Origin: Arcobacter sp.
Lineage (GTDB): Bacteria > Campylobacterota > Campylobacteria > Campylobacterales > Arcobacteraceae
Assembly (NCBI GenBank): GCA_020048055.1
Contig: JAIFNA010000002.1
Location: 1 to 32,022, forward strand
DNA length: 32,022 nt
Reading direction: 5' to 3'
Of this stretch, positions 10,204 to 20,387 are shown in pieces. The translations under genes were made by a program, and so were the position numbers. Position 1 is the stretch's first letter. Each line of letters starts with the position of its first letter. The notes below the pieces were generated by a model. It made no database searches. It saw only the letters and a program-made list of their open reading frames with translations, and had not been told where the DNA came from.

Positions 10204-11187
10204 TTATTTGTTTTTTCTTAACAAAAGTGATACTTTTTCCAAAACATCTTTGGCTTTTATCTCTTTCATACATTGATGGTGTATTTGCTTATCAAGTGGG
10301 CACTCCCGTTTCATACAAGGCATACAAGAAAAATCTTTTTTAACTATTACACTTTTTTCATTTTTCCACTGTGATGTTTCATTAAATTTTGTCGGTCCAA
10401 AAATACAAACACTAGGGACTCCAAATGCTGCTGCTAGATGCATAGGACCGCTATCGTTTGTGATAAATAAATCAAGATTTGAAATCTTTTCAATCAACTC
10501 CTCAACAGTTGTAAGCCCAGCAAGGTTTTCATAATTTGTGATATTTGATAATTTCAATCTATCTTCAATATCACTAGCCATATCAACCTCTCCACTTCCA
10601 CCAAAAATAATCGTATCATAGCTATTAGAAAGCTCTTTTATCACATTTGCAAATTCATTTGGATACCATCTTTTAGCACTTCCATAAGTTGCACCTGGAT
10701 TTATACCCAAAATTGGTTTTTGTTTTTTTGATGTATCACTAAAACGATTTTCATCTTGATATATCATAAGCTTTTGTGGTGTTGTATTAATTTTTAGGCT
10801 ACGATTTACAAAATCGTTGTATCTTATTACTAGGTGAACTTCATCTTTTGTAAATCTTTTATAGCGATATTTCTCTTTTGCATCTATCCAAAAAAGTAAA
10901 AATGTAGATGTAAAATTTCTCCTAAAACTAAAAGCAATATCTACAACACCAACACTTTTAGCGATACTGTAAAGATTTTTGTACCTAAAACCACTTTTTT
11001 TAGAATCATCAATCAAAATCTTTTTAACATTTGGATGGTGGATAAAAATCTTAGAACTAACAAATGAGCCTAAAATTGTTATTTCACAATCTTTATATGT
11101 TTTTATAATATTTTCAATCGCGGGTGTCGCCATAACAGCGTCTCCAAGCCAAGTTGGAATCTCTATAAATATTTTTTTAATCTGCAC
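10204..11187 (-). CDS. waaF: ADP-heptose:LPS heptosyltransferase II
   Basis: A 327-residue GT9 family protein acting on the cytosolic face of the inner membrane, where it adds the second L-glycero-D-manno-heptose to the LPS inner core. The N-terminal IPTWLGDAVMATPA matches the WaaF acceptor-side motif, the NDSGPMHLAAAFG motif (about residues 244-256) is the GT9 donor-binding signature, and the cysteine-rich tail (CMPCMKRECP ... HHQCM) is typical of WaaF rather than WaaC. It overlaps the upstream GH-like gene by 11 bp and so is cotranscribed. With waaC at the other end of the window it brackets the LPS locus, an arrangement known from campylobacterial LOS clusters. Confidence 0.92.
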   Translation of the reverse strand: MQIKKIFIEIPTWLGDAVMATPAIENIIKTYKDCEITILGSFVSSKIFIHHPNVKKILIDDSKKSGFRYKNLYSIAKSVGVVDIAFSFRRNFTSTFLLFWIDAKEKYRYKRFTKDEVHLVIRYNDFVNRSLKINTTPQKLMIYQDENRFSDTSKKQKPILGINPGATYGSAKRWYPNEFANVIKELSNSYDTIIFGGSGEVDMASDIEDRLKLSNITNYENLAGLTTVEELIEKISNLDLFITNDSGPMHLAAAFGVPSVCIFGPTKFNETSQWKNEKSVIVKKDFSCMPCMKRECPLDKQIHHQCMKEIKAKDVLEKVSLLLRKNK

Positions 11188-12235
11188 TTTTTACCATCTC
11201 CAACATCTTATAAAATTGTGGCATTTTCACCAAAACACCATCTCTATTATCAACCAAACCATAACCAGCTGCAATTAATTGATGCCAAAAAACTTTTTTT
11301 ATCTTTTTACTATCTTTTGCAATACTAAAATACTCCTCCATAAAAAGTGTGTAATCATCGATATTAACACACTCTGCTTCACTTGTAGGGGAATATGGAG
11401 CTCTATTTTTTAATGGCCAATTTACTTCAGTTATATAAATCTCATCTTCACACTTAAAAGAAGTTTTTACAATCGTATCTAAAAATTCAATCTTATTTTT
11501 AAGGTCAAATATCCCATATTGGGTATTTTTGGGACCTCCACGACGGTCAACATAAAGTAAACTTGCAACCTTATCAAAATGGATTTTGTAGCTATTAAAA
11601 AGTGTACGAATTGTAAAGTGGAATTCAAAATCTATAACAGATGAACCAACTAATTTGATATTTTTGAAACTTTTATCTCGCACTTTTTGGATTGTTTTAT
11701 AAAAATCCAAATACTCATCAACACTAGCAAAGCCCCATTTTATACGATTTATTGCATTTCCAATCATAAATTCATTAGAAACTTCACTAAACTTTTCAAA
11801 TACAATATTTATATCTTTTTTTAAAAGCTCCTTGTTTTCTATATGCTCCCTACTTTGAACAACACAAATAAGTATCTCTTTATCGTTTCCAAACGATTGT
11901 GCAAACTTTACATATTTATCGATATTTTCCATCTCGCATAGATAAAATCTTATCTGCAAAGACTTCACACCAAGCTCTTCAATAAGCATAACCTGCTTAT
12001 CTCCCTTGTCAAGATTGACACAAATACCATAAAATAATTTTGAATGTTGAATGTTGGATTTTGAATTATTATTTTTAAATAAAAATTTAAAAAACAGATA
12101 GGGAAATAAAAAAATATTTGTCAAAAACAATTTCAAAAACTCTTTAGTTTTGTTTTTTCGCAAACTTTTTTTATCTTTTTTGGACAAAACTGCTGGTTGA
12201 TCTGATGGATGCCAAGGGTGGTTTTTAAAAATCAT
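11177..12235 (-). CDS. Membrane-anchored TIM-barrel protein resembling clan-A glycoside hydrolases
   Basis: A 352-residue protein with a very basic N-terminus (residues 18-34) and one hydrophobic helix (about 35-54), so probably membrane anchored. From residue 66 it shows alternating strands and helices like a beta/alpha barrel. Clan-A landmarks are recognisable: ITEVNWP with E270 where the nucleophile of strand 7 would be, and VFWHQL (316-321) on the last strand. At the strand-4 position, where active enzymes have GNE, this protein reads MIGNAINR (158-164), with alanine at 161. Hydrolysis by the usual double-displacement mechanism is therefore doubtful. It overlaps GT9 (4 bp) and waaF (11 bp) in the LPS core operon, which suggests a job in core trimming, sensing or transfer. 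The specific function is not known to me. Confidence 0.72.
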   Translation of the reverse strand: MIFKNHPWHPSDQPAVLSKKDKKSLRKNKTKEFLKLFLTNIFLFPYLFFKFLFKNNNSKSNIQHSKLFYGICVNLDKGDKQVMLIEELGVKSLQIRFYLCEMENIDKYVKFAQSFGNDKEILICVVQSREHIENKELLKKDINIVFEKFSEVSNEFMIGNAINRIKWGFASVDEYLDFYKTIQKVRDKSFKNIKLVGSSVIDFEFHFTIRTLFNSYKIHFDKVASLLYVDRRGGPKNTQYGIFDLKNKIEFLDTIVKTSFKCEDEIYITEVNWPLKNRAPYSPTSEAECVNIDDYTLFMEEYFSIAKDSKKIKKVFWHQLIAAGYGLVDNRDGVLVKMPQFYKMLEMVKSAD

Positions 12236-15470: not shown

Positions 15471-16553
15471 ATGTCTAAAAATATACTTGAACTTTGCCTC
15501 TCACCTGACCTTGGTGGATTGGAACTTTTTGTATCAACTTGTTTTAATGATTTTAAAACAAAAACAAACTGTAAAATCTCAATTGCACCAAACAGTAAAC
15601 TAGATAGTTATCTCGATGAAAATGATAAATTTTACATCAAAAGAAATAAGCTTTTTCCAATATTCCCTGCATTAAAACTTGCTAAATTTATTGATGAGAA
15701 TAATATCGATATTATCCATTTTCATTGGACAAAAGATATAAATCTTGTGGTTTTAGGGAAAGTTTTTAGTAGGAGAAAACCAATAATTGTCCAATCAAGA
15801 CATATGACGATGACAAGATTTAAAGATGATTTTTACCACAAATGGCTTTATTCAAAAATAGATAAAATTCATGCAGTCACCTATCAAGTAAAATCTCAAC
15901 TAGAAAAATTTATCCCAAAATCTATCTTACCAAAAATAGAGATGGTGCATATTGGATGTGAAGCTTCAAATATCAATACAAAAATAGTAGATGAGTTAAA
16001 AGAGACTTATCATCTTAGTGGCAAATTTGTTGTTGGTATTGTTGGGAGAATCGAAGAGGCAAAGGGTCAATATTTAGTTATTGAGGCGATATCAAAACTA
16101 AGACATCTTCCAATTATTGGGCTTATTGTTGGAGATGCCATGGATAAAAATTATCTAAATGAACTAAAAGCGAAAGTTCAAAAATTGGGACTTGAGGAGA
16201 AAATAATTTTTACAGGTTTTACCAAAGATGTAAATGAACATATACAACTTTTTGATGTTAGTATTTTAGCTACACCAAAAGAAACGTTTGGACTTGTCGT
16301 AATCGAAGCGATGGCGAATGGTATTTGTGTGTGTGCAACAAACCAAGGTGGACCACTTGAGATTATTGATGATATGGTTGATGGGTTATTGTTTCAAAGA
16401 GATAGTGATAGCATAAAAGAGAAAATCGAGCTACTTTACACAAATAGTGAACTTAAAACAAAACTTGCAAATAATGGAAAATTAAAAGCTGACAAACTTT
16501 TTAATAAAAATATGCAGTTAGAGAAATTATATGGGGTACTAAATGAAGGTTAG
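15471..16553 (+). CDS. GT4 family glycosyltransferase
   Basis: A 360-residue GT-B fold glycosyltransferase. The N-terminal half starts with ILELCLSPDLGGLELF, a glycine-rich acceptor-side loop. The C-terminal half has VGRIEEAKGQYLVIEAI and the retaining-GT motif PKETFGLVVIEAMANG with the EX7E pair, then NQGGPLEII. It should be a retaining transferase using a nucleotide sugar on the cytosolic face of the inner membrane, extending the LPS core or O-unit. The GT2 gene downstream overlaps it by 11 bp, so the two probably act in sequence. The sugar is unknown. Confidence 0.88.
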   Translation: MSKNILELCLSPDLGGLELFVSTCFNDFKTKTNCKISIAPNSKLDSYLDENDKFYIKRNKLFPIFPALKLAKFIDENNIDIIHFHWTKDINLVVLGKVFSRRKPIIVQSRHMTMTRFKDDFYHKWLYSKIDKIHAVTYQVKSQLEKFIPKSILPKIEMVHIGCEASNINTKIVDELKETYHLSGKFVVGIVGRIEEAKGQYLVIEAISKLRHLPIIGLIVGDAMDKNYLNELKAKVQKLGLEEKIIFTGFTKDVNEHIQLFDVSILATPKETFGLVVIEAMANGICVCATNQGGPLEIIDDMVDGLLFQRDSDSIKEKIELLYTNSELKTKLANNGKLKADKLFNKNMQLEKLYGVLNEG

Positions 16554-17358
16554 TCTAATAATAGCAGTTTATAAAGATGTTGTGGCACTTGATCTAATCA
16601 TACAGTCGCTAAAAAATCAAACATATAAAAATTTTGAAGTGATTATCGCCGAAGATGGCAAATCTGATGAGATGGCAAAATATATCGCAACCATTGAGGG
16701 ACTTGAAGTTTATCATCTAACACAAGAAGATGTTGGTTGGAGAAAAAATAAAATGCTAAACAAAGCTATAAAAAAAAGCTCAACAGAATACCTAATATTT
16801 ATAGATGGGGATTGTTTACTTGATAAGAGATTTATCGCCGAACACGTCAGGTTAAAATCAAAAAAAACAGTTCTATGTGGACGAAGAACAGAGCCAGGTG
16901 AGTTGTTTAGTGATTTATTAAGAGCAAAAAAAATTTCACTTCAAAAGTTTCTAGATAACTACATAACAAGTTATTTTAAGCTTAAAAAAGACAATACGAG
17001 ACATTATGAAGAGGGAATATACTGCAATCCAAATTCTTGGATTGGAAAACTTATTTCATTAAAAGCTTCAAAAAAAGAAGCTCATCTTGTTGGCTGTCAT
17101 TGGTCGTGCAATAAAGATGATATACTTGAAATAAATGGCTTTGATGAGGATTTTGAGCTACCAACAACTGGAGAGGATACAGATATTGAAAGACGAATGA
17201 GACATTTTGGAATAAAAATGAAATCTTGTAGAAATTTTGCAGTAATGGTTCATTTGTACCATAAAAAGAATTTTAATCAAGATATTTCAAACCAAACTCA
17301 AAAACTAATGGAAACCAAAAAAGATGAGTTTGTTTGCAAAAATGGAATAATCAAATAG
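16543..17358 (+). CDS. GT2 family glycosyltransferase with galactosyltransferase-type C-terminal domain
   Basis: A 271-residue GT-A fold enzyme. VSLIIAVYKD opens the fold, DGD at 88-90 is the metal-binding motif, and GCHWSCNKDDILEINGFDEDF followed by GEDTDIERRMRHFG matches the C-terminal galactosyltransferase-like domain (Glyco_transf_7C type). Probably adds a hexose or HexNAc to the growing core or O-unit. It overlaps the GT4 gene by 11 bp. Notably, its last 47 bases before the stop have a diverged second copy at 19136-19182, so the gene end was duplicated or a paralogue once lay there. Confidence 0.87.
   Translation: MKVSLIIAVYKDVVALDLIIQSLKNQTYKNFEVIIAEDGKSDEMAKYIATIEGLEVYHLTQEDVGWRKNKMLNKAIKKSSTEYLIFIDGDCLLDKRFIAEHVRLKSKKTVLCGRRTEPGELFSDLLRAKKISLQKFLDNYITSYFKLKKDNTRHYEEGIYCNPNSWIGKLISLKASKKEAHLVGCHWSCNKDDILEINGFDEDFELPTTGEDTDIERRMRHFGIKMKSCRNFAVMVHLYHKKNFNQDISNQTQKLMETKKDEFVCKNGIIK
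17308..17354 (+). repeat. Gene-tail repeat, copy A (3' end of the GT2 gene)
   Basis: Forty-seven bases encoding METKKDEFVCKNGIIK. Aligned without gaps to copy B at 19136-19182 by hand, 38 of 47 positions match and the last 17 are identical. Confidence 0.8.
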
Positions 17359-17381
17359 ACTATGTAACTTTCTTGAATCTT

Positions 17382-18014
17382 TCAATCTAAATTATTAATG
17401 TACAGAGAGATATCCAAATGCCTACCAAAATGCCTCCATTCATCCCTTACTCTTGTATCATTTTTAAACCTTTCAATACAAATATTTGATTTAAAATCAT
17501 AGTCTTTAGATGTAAACATAAGTTTATTTTTAAATTCCAAATCATCAAATCTCTTGCCCAAAGAATAATCAAAAAGATCGCCATCACTAAATTTGAATAT
17601 AATCTTATTCAGATCAATCCTATCACATCGATTTAACCATTTTTGTCTAGCTTCCTCTTTTGTTTTATAATGCAAAAAATTTACTTCATATTTTCCATCT
17701 ATCAAGCCTATTGGATAGTCTATTTGATAAATATTTAATCTCTTCATTTCATCGATATATTTTGATTGACCATGTTCAATAAATGATAAGTTATACAATT
17801 TTTCAACTGAAAAGTTCTCCAAAAGTTCAATATAATCAGGTGCAAAAATCATAGAATTGATAAAAGGTGACCGATAAGGCAATCCAAATTTCTTGTATAT
17901 AAAAGTTCCCCAACAATTATTTGAAATAATTGTAAAATTCTTGTTTCGTAATGAAATACGACTTATTCTTGATTTGATATATTTTTCAAAATTTCTTAAT
18001 ATCTCTATTCTCAT
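17382..18014 (-). CDS. DUF1919 family protein (exopolysaccharide-locus protein)
   Basis: A 210-residue protein that matches the DUF1919 pattern as I know it: ISNNCWGTFIYKKFGLPYRSPF near residues 30-51 and HYKTKEEARQKWLNRCDRI around 115-133, followed by FKFSDGD. No signal peptide or membrane segment is seen. Members occur in capsule and exopolysaccharide loci and are sometimes described as acyltransferase- or glycan-biosynthesis-related, but the biochemical role is not established to my knowledge. It is on the minus strand, convergent with the GT2 gene (23 bp apart), and next to a decayed glycosyltransferase. Both lie between the two gene-tail repeats, which suggests arrival as a cassette. Confidence 0.78.
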   Translation of the reverse strand: MRIEILRNFEKYIKSRISRISLRNKNFTIISNNCWGTFIYKKFGLPYRSPFINSMIFAPDYIELLENFSVEKLYNLSFIEHGQSKYIDEMKRLNIYQIDYPIGLIDGKYEVNFLHYKTKEEARQKWLNRCDRIDLNKIIFKFSDGDLFDYSLGKRFDDLEFKNKLMFTSKDYDFKSNICIERFKNDTRVRDEWRHFGRHLDISLYINNLD

Positions 18015-18099
18015 TTTTTACCCTATCTACTTTCTTCTAGTATCATTAAAAAAGATAGTTTGTAATTGTACAATACGAATTGTCTTGTCCATATAATTA

Positions 18100-19072
18100 C
18101 CTTTGTATAATTTTATGCCGCACAAGTCATTAAATACATTATAAAATTTCAATCCACAAATCTCTTTTAATATTAATCTAAATTTATTCTTTTTGTATTA
18201 GAATAGAATTTATCTTTATTTTTATTTAAAAGAAAAACCAATTTTAACTTATCCATGATTTATTTTTAAGCGTATATTATATCATTAAATTGGGTAGCAA
18301 ACATTTATCAGCCTCAGAAAGCAACGATAGTCTTAAAAAATAATCAAGCATGAGAATTTTTTGATTTATTTGAGATGCTTTTTCTCAACAATGCTTGATT
18401 TTTGTTTTTTTAATTTCTTTTTGGCATATCCGCTTAGTGTATTGCTTACATGTTGTCTGTATTGCACCAGGCAATCATCATAATAATGCACTCCATTTAG
18501 TGCAGCAGCATTAGCTGCAATATAAGCATCAAAATAAATTATTTTAGTAAAAGGAAATAGATACTCTAAAATCTCTCTTTTAAACAACATAGCATGAGTT
18601 GAGACTATATTACCAAAGAGAAAGTTTAGACCAATTTGGAAGCTAATGAAATTGTTTCTTAGTTTTTATGATAGTGTTTTATCTAAACTTTGCCCGTTTT
18701 CATCCGCCAATAAAGAATTTGCATAAATCAGGCTACTATCCCCGATATGACTTAGTAGTGACTCTAATTTATCAGCTTTCCAAATATCATCTTGATCACA
18801 AGATGCTATAAAATCGGAAGTTGCTTTTGACAAAATAGACTCAAAGTTTTTCATAAATCCAAGATTTGTTTCATTTACAAAAATCTTTAATTTAATATTT
18901 ATTGATATATTTTTGTAATTTCAACAGCATTATCAATTGAGCAATCATCTTGCAATATTACTTCATAGGATTTGATTGTTTCATTTAACAATGAAGCTAA
19001 TTATTCATGGAGATATGTTGATCTATTGTATGTTGCAATGCAAATTGTTATACAAATACTATTCGCTTTCAT
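18100..19072 (-). pseudogene. Decayed GT2 glycosyltransferase (rhamnosyltransferase-like)
   Basis: From the ATG at 19072 the minus strand encodes ICITICIATYNRSTYLHE, a GT2 N-terminus, interrupted by TAA at 19001-19003 where the family usually has EQL (CAA to TAA would explain it). The frame continues through ILQDDCSIDN and is lost near 18900, but resumes in another frame with INIKLKIFVNETNLGFMKNFES and then ASCDQDDIWKADKLE. A further in-frame stop occurs at 18666-18668; reading continues in the same frame through MLFKREILEYLFPF to KHLK (stop 18366). Later pieces in shifted frames (ILMLDYFLRLSLLSEADK, LKLVFLLNKNKDKFYSNTKR, FRLILKEICGLKFYNVF) extend the remnant to about 18100. An intact gene would be about 300-320 residues. 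Several nonsense and frameshift lesions make it clearly non-functional. Confidence 0.88.
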
Positions 19073-19099
19073 ACCATTGCAACCACTAATAATTTAAGT

Positions 19100-19189
19100 T
19101 AAACATATAAAATTGATGCGAAAACACTTAACTTAATGAATACCAAATTAGACAAATTTATTTGTAAAAATGGAATAATCAAGCTTTAA
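19100..19189 (+). pseudogene. Remnant of the 3' end of a GT2 gene (gene-tail repeat copy B)
   Basis: The plus strand encodes AKTLNLMNTKLDKFICKNGIIKL then TAA at 19187-19189, clearly related to the end of the GT2 protein encoded at 16543-17358 (QTQKLMETKKDEFVCKNGIIK). The 47-bp core 19136-19182 matches copy A at 38 positions. Upstream of about 19100 the frame is broken (TAA near 19099) and no further GT2 sequence is recognisable. It overlaps the end of the convergent waaL gene (19179) by 11 bp. Confidence 0.75.
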
Positions 19190-20387
19190 CCGCTGATTCA
19201 TTCCATTTTATTGCCAAGATTCCAACAATAAAACACCAAAGTGCTATTGTAAATTGTTTCATCCATAAAGGGTCACCAACACAACTAAAACAATATATCG
19301 CCAAAAAGACAACACCGAGCTCCTTTGTTGTTTGGTTTTTTAAAGATACCCTAATGATTTGAAATAAGATATTTAACATCAATAAAATTCCCACAATCCC
19401 ACCTTCAATAATAACCATAAGATATTGGTTATGAAAATGATTGTGCAAAATAAACTCTTTTACTGTATCAGAAAATGGCATAACTTTTTCATCAAAAACT
19501 TTTTGTGATGAGCCAACAGAACCACCAAGTCCAACACCAAAAATTGGATCTTTTTTAAAAATCTCATATCCTGTCATAATAAAAGCGATTCTTGATCCCC
19601 ATGAGCCATCATAATTTAGATTTTGTATCATTGCTAAATCTTGTTTTGTATCTAATATTCTTTTTTGAAATGTATTGCTAAGTGAGAAAGCAACAAAAAA
19701 TACTACAACCAAGCCAATAATAGAGCCAATAATCGCTTTTATCGTAAGCTTATAATGTAAAATAAAAATAGCAATAAATCCAATTAAAAATGCTATTTGT
19801 CCAACGCGACCTGGTGCCAAAAATAAATTTCCAGTAACAGTACAAAAGAAAAGTCCAAAAATCACTTTTTCTTTTATGGTATAATCTTTAGATATAACCC
19901 TACTGAGTAACAAAATTGAAGCAAAAGCCAAGAAAATACTATAATCTATATGCATCATAAATGGCGATAGATATTCTTTTGTTGCATATTTAGCACTCCA
20001 TAAATCAAAAAATACACCATAAGCAATGATTTCAGAGATAAAAATACCAGCCAAAAAAGCAGAAAGAATAAGAGAGACTTGCTCTTTTTTTAATTTTGTT
20101 GCAAAAACAAAAAGGATAAGCCAATAAGAGTAAAGTCGAGCCATATTTGCCCCCTCTTCTGTGTTGCTACTCCAAAATAAACTAATAAAGATATATCCCA
20201 AAAAGATAGTGATTGATAAAAGAATTGGATTGTTTTTGATGTCGTTAATTTTATCTCTTATGTGTCCATCAAAAAGCCACACAAGAGGTAATACGATAAC
20301 AAAAAGGCTTATCAAAGCCCTACTAATTGGTAAGATAAGTGCAAAGGCAATTGCACTATAAAAATAAAAATTTTGGTTAACTTTCAA
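19179..20387 (-). CDS. waaL: O-antigen ligase (WaaL) family protein
   Basis: A 402-residue polytopic inner-membrane protein with about ten to twelve helices. The Wzy_C/WaaL landmarks are present: APGRVGQ (R194) before a periplasmic loop, then GVGLGGSVG (284-292) and HNHFHNQYLMVIIEGGIVG (from 315), which holds the conserved histidine. Such enzymes transfer an undecaprenyl-diphosphate-linked glycan to the lipid A core on the periplasmic side. A Wzy polymerase is the main alternative because both share the fold, but its place in a waaC-waaF locus favours ligase. The start is a TTG with ribosome-binding site AAAGGA about 10 nt upstream. It lies 68 bp after the Wzi-like gene. Confidence 0.82.
   Translation of the reverse strand: MKVNQNFYFYSAIAFALILPISRALISLFVIVLPLVWLFDGHIRDKINDIKNNPILLSITIFLGYIFISLFWSSNTEEGANMARLYSYWLILFVFATKLKKEQVSLILSAFLAGIFISEIIAYGVFFDLWSAKYATKEYLSPFMMHIDYSIFLAFASILLLSRVISKDYTIKEKVIFGLFFCTVTGNLFLAPGRVGQIAFLIGFIAIFILHYKLTIKAIIGSIIGLVVVFFVAFSLSNTFQKRILDTKQDLAMIQNLNYDGSWGSRIAFIMTGYEIFKKDPIFGVGLGGSVGSSQKVFDEKVMPFSDTVKEFILHNHFHNQYLMVIIEGGIVGILLMLNILFQIIRVSLKNQTTKELGVVFLAIYCFSCVGDPLWMKQFTIALWCFIVGILAIKWNESAVKA

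Follow-up and report, generated by a model that had tools for sequence, protein, structure and literature searches.

An orphan glycosyltransferase tail beside waaL: a probable recombination scar in an Arcobacter surface-glycan locus

Introduction

Why does the end of a glycosyltransferase gene occur twice in one surface-glycan locus, once on a whole gene and once alone, next to waaL? The question is raised by a stretch of 32,022 nucleotides (bases 1-32022 of its contig, called the window here) from an Arcobacter genome of about 2.0 Mb. The glycan locus in the window contains genes of the heptosyltransferase family and genes for a Kdo-kinase-like protein, a polysaccharide deacetylase, a GT4 and a GT2 glycosyltransferase and a ligase-type protein, as well as for Wzi, Wzz and export. 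On the GT4 side of GT2, much of the gene order is repeated in many of the Campylobacterota loci fetched for comparison. A 352-residue protein encoded at 11177-12235 is also present in many related loci; it has no match in Pfam or NCBIfam at E 0.001.

The features that matter for the question are collected in Table 1. The intact GT2, called GT2-A, scores 64.3 bits with PF00535 (curated cut-off 23.3). Its start overlaps the end of the GT4 gene by 11 bp, an overlap of the same length as in L107, L123 and L216. The gene called waaL scores 67.5 bits with PF04932 (Wzy_C; cut-off 31.7) and has no NCBIfam match at E 0.001. The Wzy_C domain does not tell a ligase from a polymerase.

Table 1. Features around the two copies of the GT2 tail, in window coordinates.
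Feature	Position	Strand	Evidence
GT4 glycosyltransferase	15471..16553	+	PF00534, E 8.4e-34
Intact GT2 (GT2-A), 271 aa, probable hybrid	16543..17358	+	PF00535, E 1.6e-17
Codons 1-56 of GT2-A, resembling GT4-adjacent clade G21	16543..16710	+	identity and profile scan
Copy A, the GT2-A tail (residues 248-271 plus stop)	17284..17358	+	tblastn
DUF1919 gene, rare accessory module of the locus	17382..18014	-	PF08942, E 4.9e-51
Decayed glycosyltransferase	18366..19072	-	PF00535 on one fragment; 317-aa homologues
Orphan tail of a GT2 (copy B): Leu and stop after 24 recognisable codons	19112..19189	+	tail homology
O-antigen ligase/polymerase-type gene, called waaL	19179..20387	-	PF04932, E 1.5e-18

The repeated tail

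The original prediction reported a diverged 47-base repeat, and direct alignment bears it out: 17308-17354 and 19136-19182 share 38 of 47 bases, including all of the final 17. It also proposed an alignment for homology further upstream. Without gaps, the repeat extends to 61 nt at 77% identity (17294-17354 against 19122-19182), and blastn within the window recovers 49 bp of it at 81.6% (E 8e-8). In translation, tblastn aligns GT2 residues 248-271 with 19112-19183, with 15 of 24 residues identical (E 2e-4). No GT2 homology was found in copy B upstream of about codon 248 (19112).

Copy B is coding-like; its frame is open for 28 codons, and its recognisable GT2 part consists of the 24 codons from 19112. 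It ends in CKNGIIKL and its own TAA stop (19187-19189), the intact GT2 in CKNGIIK and a stop. Such a C-x-N-G-type motif at the C-terminus is a signature of this GT2 subfamily. The waaL stop (19179-19181) lies inside copy B, and the predicted convergent overlap of 11 bp follows from these coordinates.

With a GC content of 23-30%, the region might be expected to produce fortuitous likeness, as AT-rich sequence does. This explanation is scarcely credible. Copies A and B have a local score of 33; none of 150 dinucleotide shuffles exceeds 15, and none of 72 other pieces of the window exceeds 17. A tail profile built from 47 GT2 tails of the family was also run over the whole genome at E≤0.1, and its only matches are the end of the intact GT2 and copy B, the latter with E 7.3e-5. 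Chance similarity is rejected by these three controls.

A role of copy B as a promoter or terminator was considered as well. A consensus scan of 17200-19400 gave 11 promoter-like sites where 15.5 were expected, and a single terminator-like site, which lies within the dead glycosyltransferase gene. Both roles are rejected.

Identity of copy B

Tail models specific to each GT2 clade can be used to ask which kind of GT2 copy B came from. The model of clade T1, made from 11 sequences with copy A left out, gives copy B 39.1 bits. The models of three other clades give it 26.1, 24.3 and 13.4 bits, the lowest being that of the large GT4-adjacent clade. When copy B is trimmed to its last 18 residues, the margin is smaller: 30.8 bits for T1 compared with 26.8 (waaL-side clade), 25.4 and 15.7.

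Besides the 15 of 24 residues, copies A and B share 50 of 72 bases, and the 22 differences are divided 8, 4 and 10 among the three codon positions. Copy A shares 11-17 residues and 41-53 bases with nine of the 11 T1 sequences. By this sequence comparison, the divergence between A and B is in the range of orthologues between genera. Because of this divergence, and because copy B fits a T1 model from which A was excluded, copy B, as judged from its sequence, comes from another GT2: it comprises the final 24 codons and the own stop codon of a second gene that has been lost. Most likely, the lost gene belonged to T1, the clade of the intact GT2. Copy B had originally been taken for a duplicated tail of the present GT2, a view that these results do not sustain. 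The alternative then offered, a second and now lost GT2, is supported.

The genes between the copies

Two genes on the opposite strand lie between the copies. The nearer one to GT2-A encodes a DUF1919 protein, as originally proposed (173.5 bits with PF08942, cut-off 25). This domain is found above its cut-off in six of 398 sampled genomes of the order, the window's own included. In the same-genus genome G001 it is a neighbour of waaL; G239 and G336 have it upstream of GT4, and G398 has it next to the kinase gene. In L062 it follows a GT2, and in L100 it separates GT4 from GT2. Across relatives, DUF1919 thus occupies at least five different positions of the glycan locus, like a roving module. 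A DUF1919 protein has also been reported from a capsule locus of Actinobacillus pleuropneumoniae (PMC5901230).

The other gene had been recognised as a dead glycosyltransferase, and comparison with intact homologues of 317 residues substantiates this. Compared with L083 (11727-12680; 63-68% identical to the pieces of the dead gene) and L218 (8206-9159; 46-58%), its reading frame is broken by two or more in-frame stops and by one frameshift. In both L083 and L218, the 317-residue gene runs opposite to GT2 and lies one gene past it, as in the window. The decayed stretch may continue towards 18200.

The two genes had been described as foreign-looking. Their composition is ordinary, with a GC content of 26.1% for DUF1919 and 28.9% for the dead gene compared with 30.0% for the window. 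GC3 stands out only for the dead gene, whose 33.6% comes from a single fixed reading frame, which the frameshift disrupts. A foreign composition is thus rejected.

Signs of a mobile element were sought at the edges of the cassette. The junction shows neither an insertion sequence nor a long stretch of identical homology, and the 25 longest of 95 inverted-repeat pairs include no terminal inverted repeats. The interval 17359-19135 contains four open reading frames of at least 60 residues; the three scanned with Pfam gave DUF1919, GT2 and no match, with no transposase among them. No identical short direct repeats of the kind left by target-site duplication were found, the two copies being 77% identical over their 61 nt.

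The waaL junction in relatives

The 3' ends of 55 distinct waaL-like proteins were compared, the window's included, each with at least 150 bp of sequence beyond; one pair among them is nearly identical. At five of these ends (L047, L048, L096, L123 and L201) there is a whole convergent GT2, and at one, that of the window, an orphan tail. The stops abut or overlap by at most 7 bp in four of the five intact pairs, and in L201 they are separated by 23 bp. The proposed ancestral order of GT2 facing waaL therefore exists intact in relatives, though with other GT2 clades: all five belong to GT4-adjacent clades, whereas copy B is of the T1 type.

From the 11177-type gene to waaL, the gene order of G047 and G048 is that of the window without DUF1919 and the dead gene, apart from one extra GT9-type gene in G047. 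Beyond waaL, both differ from the window. Since GT2 and waaL face each other intact in relatives, waaL and tail B look like one old junction. DUF1919 and the decayed glycosyltransferase separate this junction from the present GT2.

A probable hybrid alongside

The genes of the window differ in how closely they resemble those of its own genus, in a sample with one genome per species. Compared with G001, six core genes are 60-79% identical, DUF1919 56%, GT2 44% and waaL 33%. Two same-genus genomes have this GT2 subfamily, with 43-45% identity in GT2.

As a whole, GT2-A falls within clade T1 (support 98, 12 rows). Its two ends differ in affinity: codons 1-56 have a median identity of 64% to the GT4-adjacent clade G21 and 45% to T1, and codons 100-271 have 58% to T1 and 33% to G21. 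A profile scan places a break at codon 56 with 59.8 bits, compared with 30.5 for the best of 59 controls (L085, a member of neither clade, whose break runs the opposite way). In a leave-one-out scan of 32 T1 and G21 sequences, the best score is 14.0 bits. It should be borne in mind that the clades were named from a tree that includes GT2-A and that the breakpoint was chosen after the alignment had been viewed.

Tree tests are mixed. For the N part (codons 1-58) with 72 rows, a grouping of G21 with GT2-A is not rejected (p 0.80); that of T1 with GT2-A is (p 0.001), but this test is discounted, as T1 alone is rejected too (p 0.002). With 33 rows, T1 alone forms one clade (97/90), T1 plus GT2-A is not rejected (p 0.55), and neither is a grouping of GT2-A with nine T1 rows (p 0.10) or with nine G21 rows (p 0.34). 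For the C part (codons 100-271), T1 plus GT2-A forms one clade with support 95 (72 rows) and 100/100 (33 rows); G21 plus GT2-A has p 0.016 and 0.050, respectively, and GT2-A with nine T1 rows has p 0.052. GT2-A is a probable hybrid, of the GT4-adjacent type to about codon 56 and of the T1 type from about codon 100, with most tree tests not decisive. The genes on either side of the junction may therefore differ in history, which the contrast in identity to G001 and the profile scan support.

Models for the origin of the tail

The likely explanation for copy B is a cassette exchange by recombination, which left the end of a displaced GT2 beside waaL. In this model, the lost gene, GT2-B, would once have been convergent to waaL with overlapping stops, and copy B would be its preserved 3' end. 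The locus would be a splice of two haplotypes, one with GT2 followed by DUF1919 and GT317 on the opposite strand, the other with GT2-B facing waaL. Recombination may have replaced the body of GT2-B or, equally, may have brought waaL and the attached end of GT2-B beside the other haplotype. The last codons of GT2-B were perhaps kept because 11 bp of them double as the end of waaL, so that deletion would damage it. We infer recombination as the cause of the join, and with it the direction, the sequence of events with respect to the probably hybrid 5' end of GT2-A, and the reason for the retention of the tail. The original reading of a recombination scar in a surface-glycan locus is supported, as a probable one.

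Chance having been set aside, other histories have to be weighed. One is that a cassette was simply inserted after GT2-A, whose tail was duplicated in the process. It would explain why copies A and B have the same orientation and bracket two genes, but the 22 of 72 differing bases follow an orthologue-like pattern, and the ending and stop differ. At the edges no transposase frame was seen, nor any terminal inverted repeats among the pairs listed. Since B is no recent copy of A, this model is very improbable and is rejected. A rather unlikely model is that two full GT2 paralogues of the same clade were present, the one on the waaL side being deleted as DUF1919 and the other glycosyltransferase moved in. 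G015, of the same family, indeed has two T1-clade GT2s in the locus, of which the second lies next to waaL and ends in FICKNGVEKL and a stop, and several relatives (L072, L075, L087 and L100) have two GT2s of different clades. However, both GT2s of G015 are on the strand of waaL, while copy B is on the opposite strand, and no remnant of GT2-B was found upstream of codon 248.

A special case of cassette exchange would require one event only, and is a possible but doubtful refinement. Here, the interior of one resident GT2 would have been replaced by a T1-type GT2 body and end, DUF1919 and GT317, so that the resident would survive in two pieces, its first 56 or so codons at the start of GT2-A and its last 24 as copy B. 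Such an event would account for the GT4-adjacent type of codons 1-56 and for the waaL junction that copy B retains. In L123 and G048, the resident GT2 shares its first 11 bp with GT4, and its 3' end abuts or overlaps waaL. Against it, tail B scores 39.1 bits with T1 and 13.4 with the large GT4-adjacent clade, and the resident itself must then have been mixed. The GT2 of L096, which belongs to a GT4-adjacent clade and is convergent to waaL, does have a somewhat T1-like tail (14.0 bits).

Taken further, cassette exchange may have a fixed place. The slot between GT4 and waaL could be an exchange site at which GT2 genes trade 3' parts as modules, the 5' end being held by the 11-bp overlap with GT4 and the 3' end by the overlap with the waaL stop. 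Every swap would leave behind a hybrid GT2 together with a fossil tail from which waaL cannot free itself. This idea is speculative and rather improbable as it stands; if true, hybrids and fossil tails counted across the Campylobacterota would be a readable record of glycan switching.

Comparison with known systems

An example of a similar relationship can be found in the galactose-initiated O-antigen clusters of Salmonella, for which wzy gene remnants and recombination junctions are reported (PMC3715488). There, as proposed for the window, remnants of displaced glycan genes reveal the origin of one cluster from another. Serial deletion leaves different parts, and group D2 is given as a hybrid cluster from D1 and E. 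In that account, the related clusters are known and some junctions have remnants of IS or H-repeat elements, whereas no IS was seen at the junction in the window. The remnant in the window also differs in being the 3' end of a glycosyltransferase that overlaps the stop of a convergent gene. The tail is a probable, well-preserved recombination scar of the kind known as gene remnants in Salmonella. Its particular features are its retention in a convergent stop overlap and the probable hybrid GT2 alongside.

Closer relatives also have variable loci. In Campylobacter jejuni, of the same phylum, the LOS loci are variable through recombination and horizontal exchange among gene regions; the available part of that source (PMC7248181) describes no gene tails retained where convergent stops overlap, like that of the window. 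In Arcobacter butzleri, from a probably related family, the LOS locus has heptose-adding genes at both ends, and the O-antigen region is reported as hypervariable (PMC2147049). The A. butzleri LOS region is reported as conserved among 12 strains in the same paper, while the stretch from GT2 to waaL in the window differs even from that of the same-genus G001. A literature search of titles and abstract openings found no published description of the window's locus.

If this account is right, a splice in a surface-glycan locus can be placed from a single genome. It suggests that the ends of lost genes are preserved where convergent stops overlap, and such tails can serve as directly searchable markers of gene exchange in the past.

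Orphan tails in other genomes

Among the loci compared, orphan or gutted GT2 tails were found in three other genomes (L035/L107 of G001, L069 and L093). The tail in G001 (L035 3746-3820, the same as L107:14757-14831 on the same contig; E 1.5e-4) lies upstream of waaL, with an open reading frame of 71 residues between. It is of another clade, with 26.3 bits from the waaL-side model compared with 13.4-15.5 from the others, and six relatives with a GT2 of this clade have a whole GT2 at its position. In L069 (20143-20349, minus strand; E 3.2e-5), the middle of a GT2 is missing: its head, about 37 codons long, is fused in frame to a C-terminal tail. This gutted gene directly follows a GT4 gene 50% identical to that of the window. 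In L093 (6741-7730), a GT2 is interrupted by an in-frame stop and followed by a second orphan tail (E 0.0099); the stretch after it looks like the start of an IS1-type transposase. Two further matches in L087 are weak (E 0.3).

The tail profile was also searched against the 398 genomes of the order. Among the remaining matches are those in short frames in G277, G373, G203 and G039, two of them (G373 and G203) at contig starts, and other weak ones at E 0.001-0.1. Matches in G018, G103, G142, G408 and G418 were inspected, and none of the genes around them matches a protein of the window. In G018 and G103, an in-frame stop falls within the motif. In G142 (L211:3145-3198, minus strand), the GT2-like stretch HLWHKK is followed by stops, and this stretch may be a real GT2 remnant.
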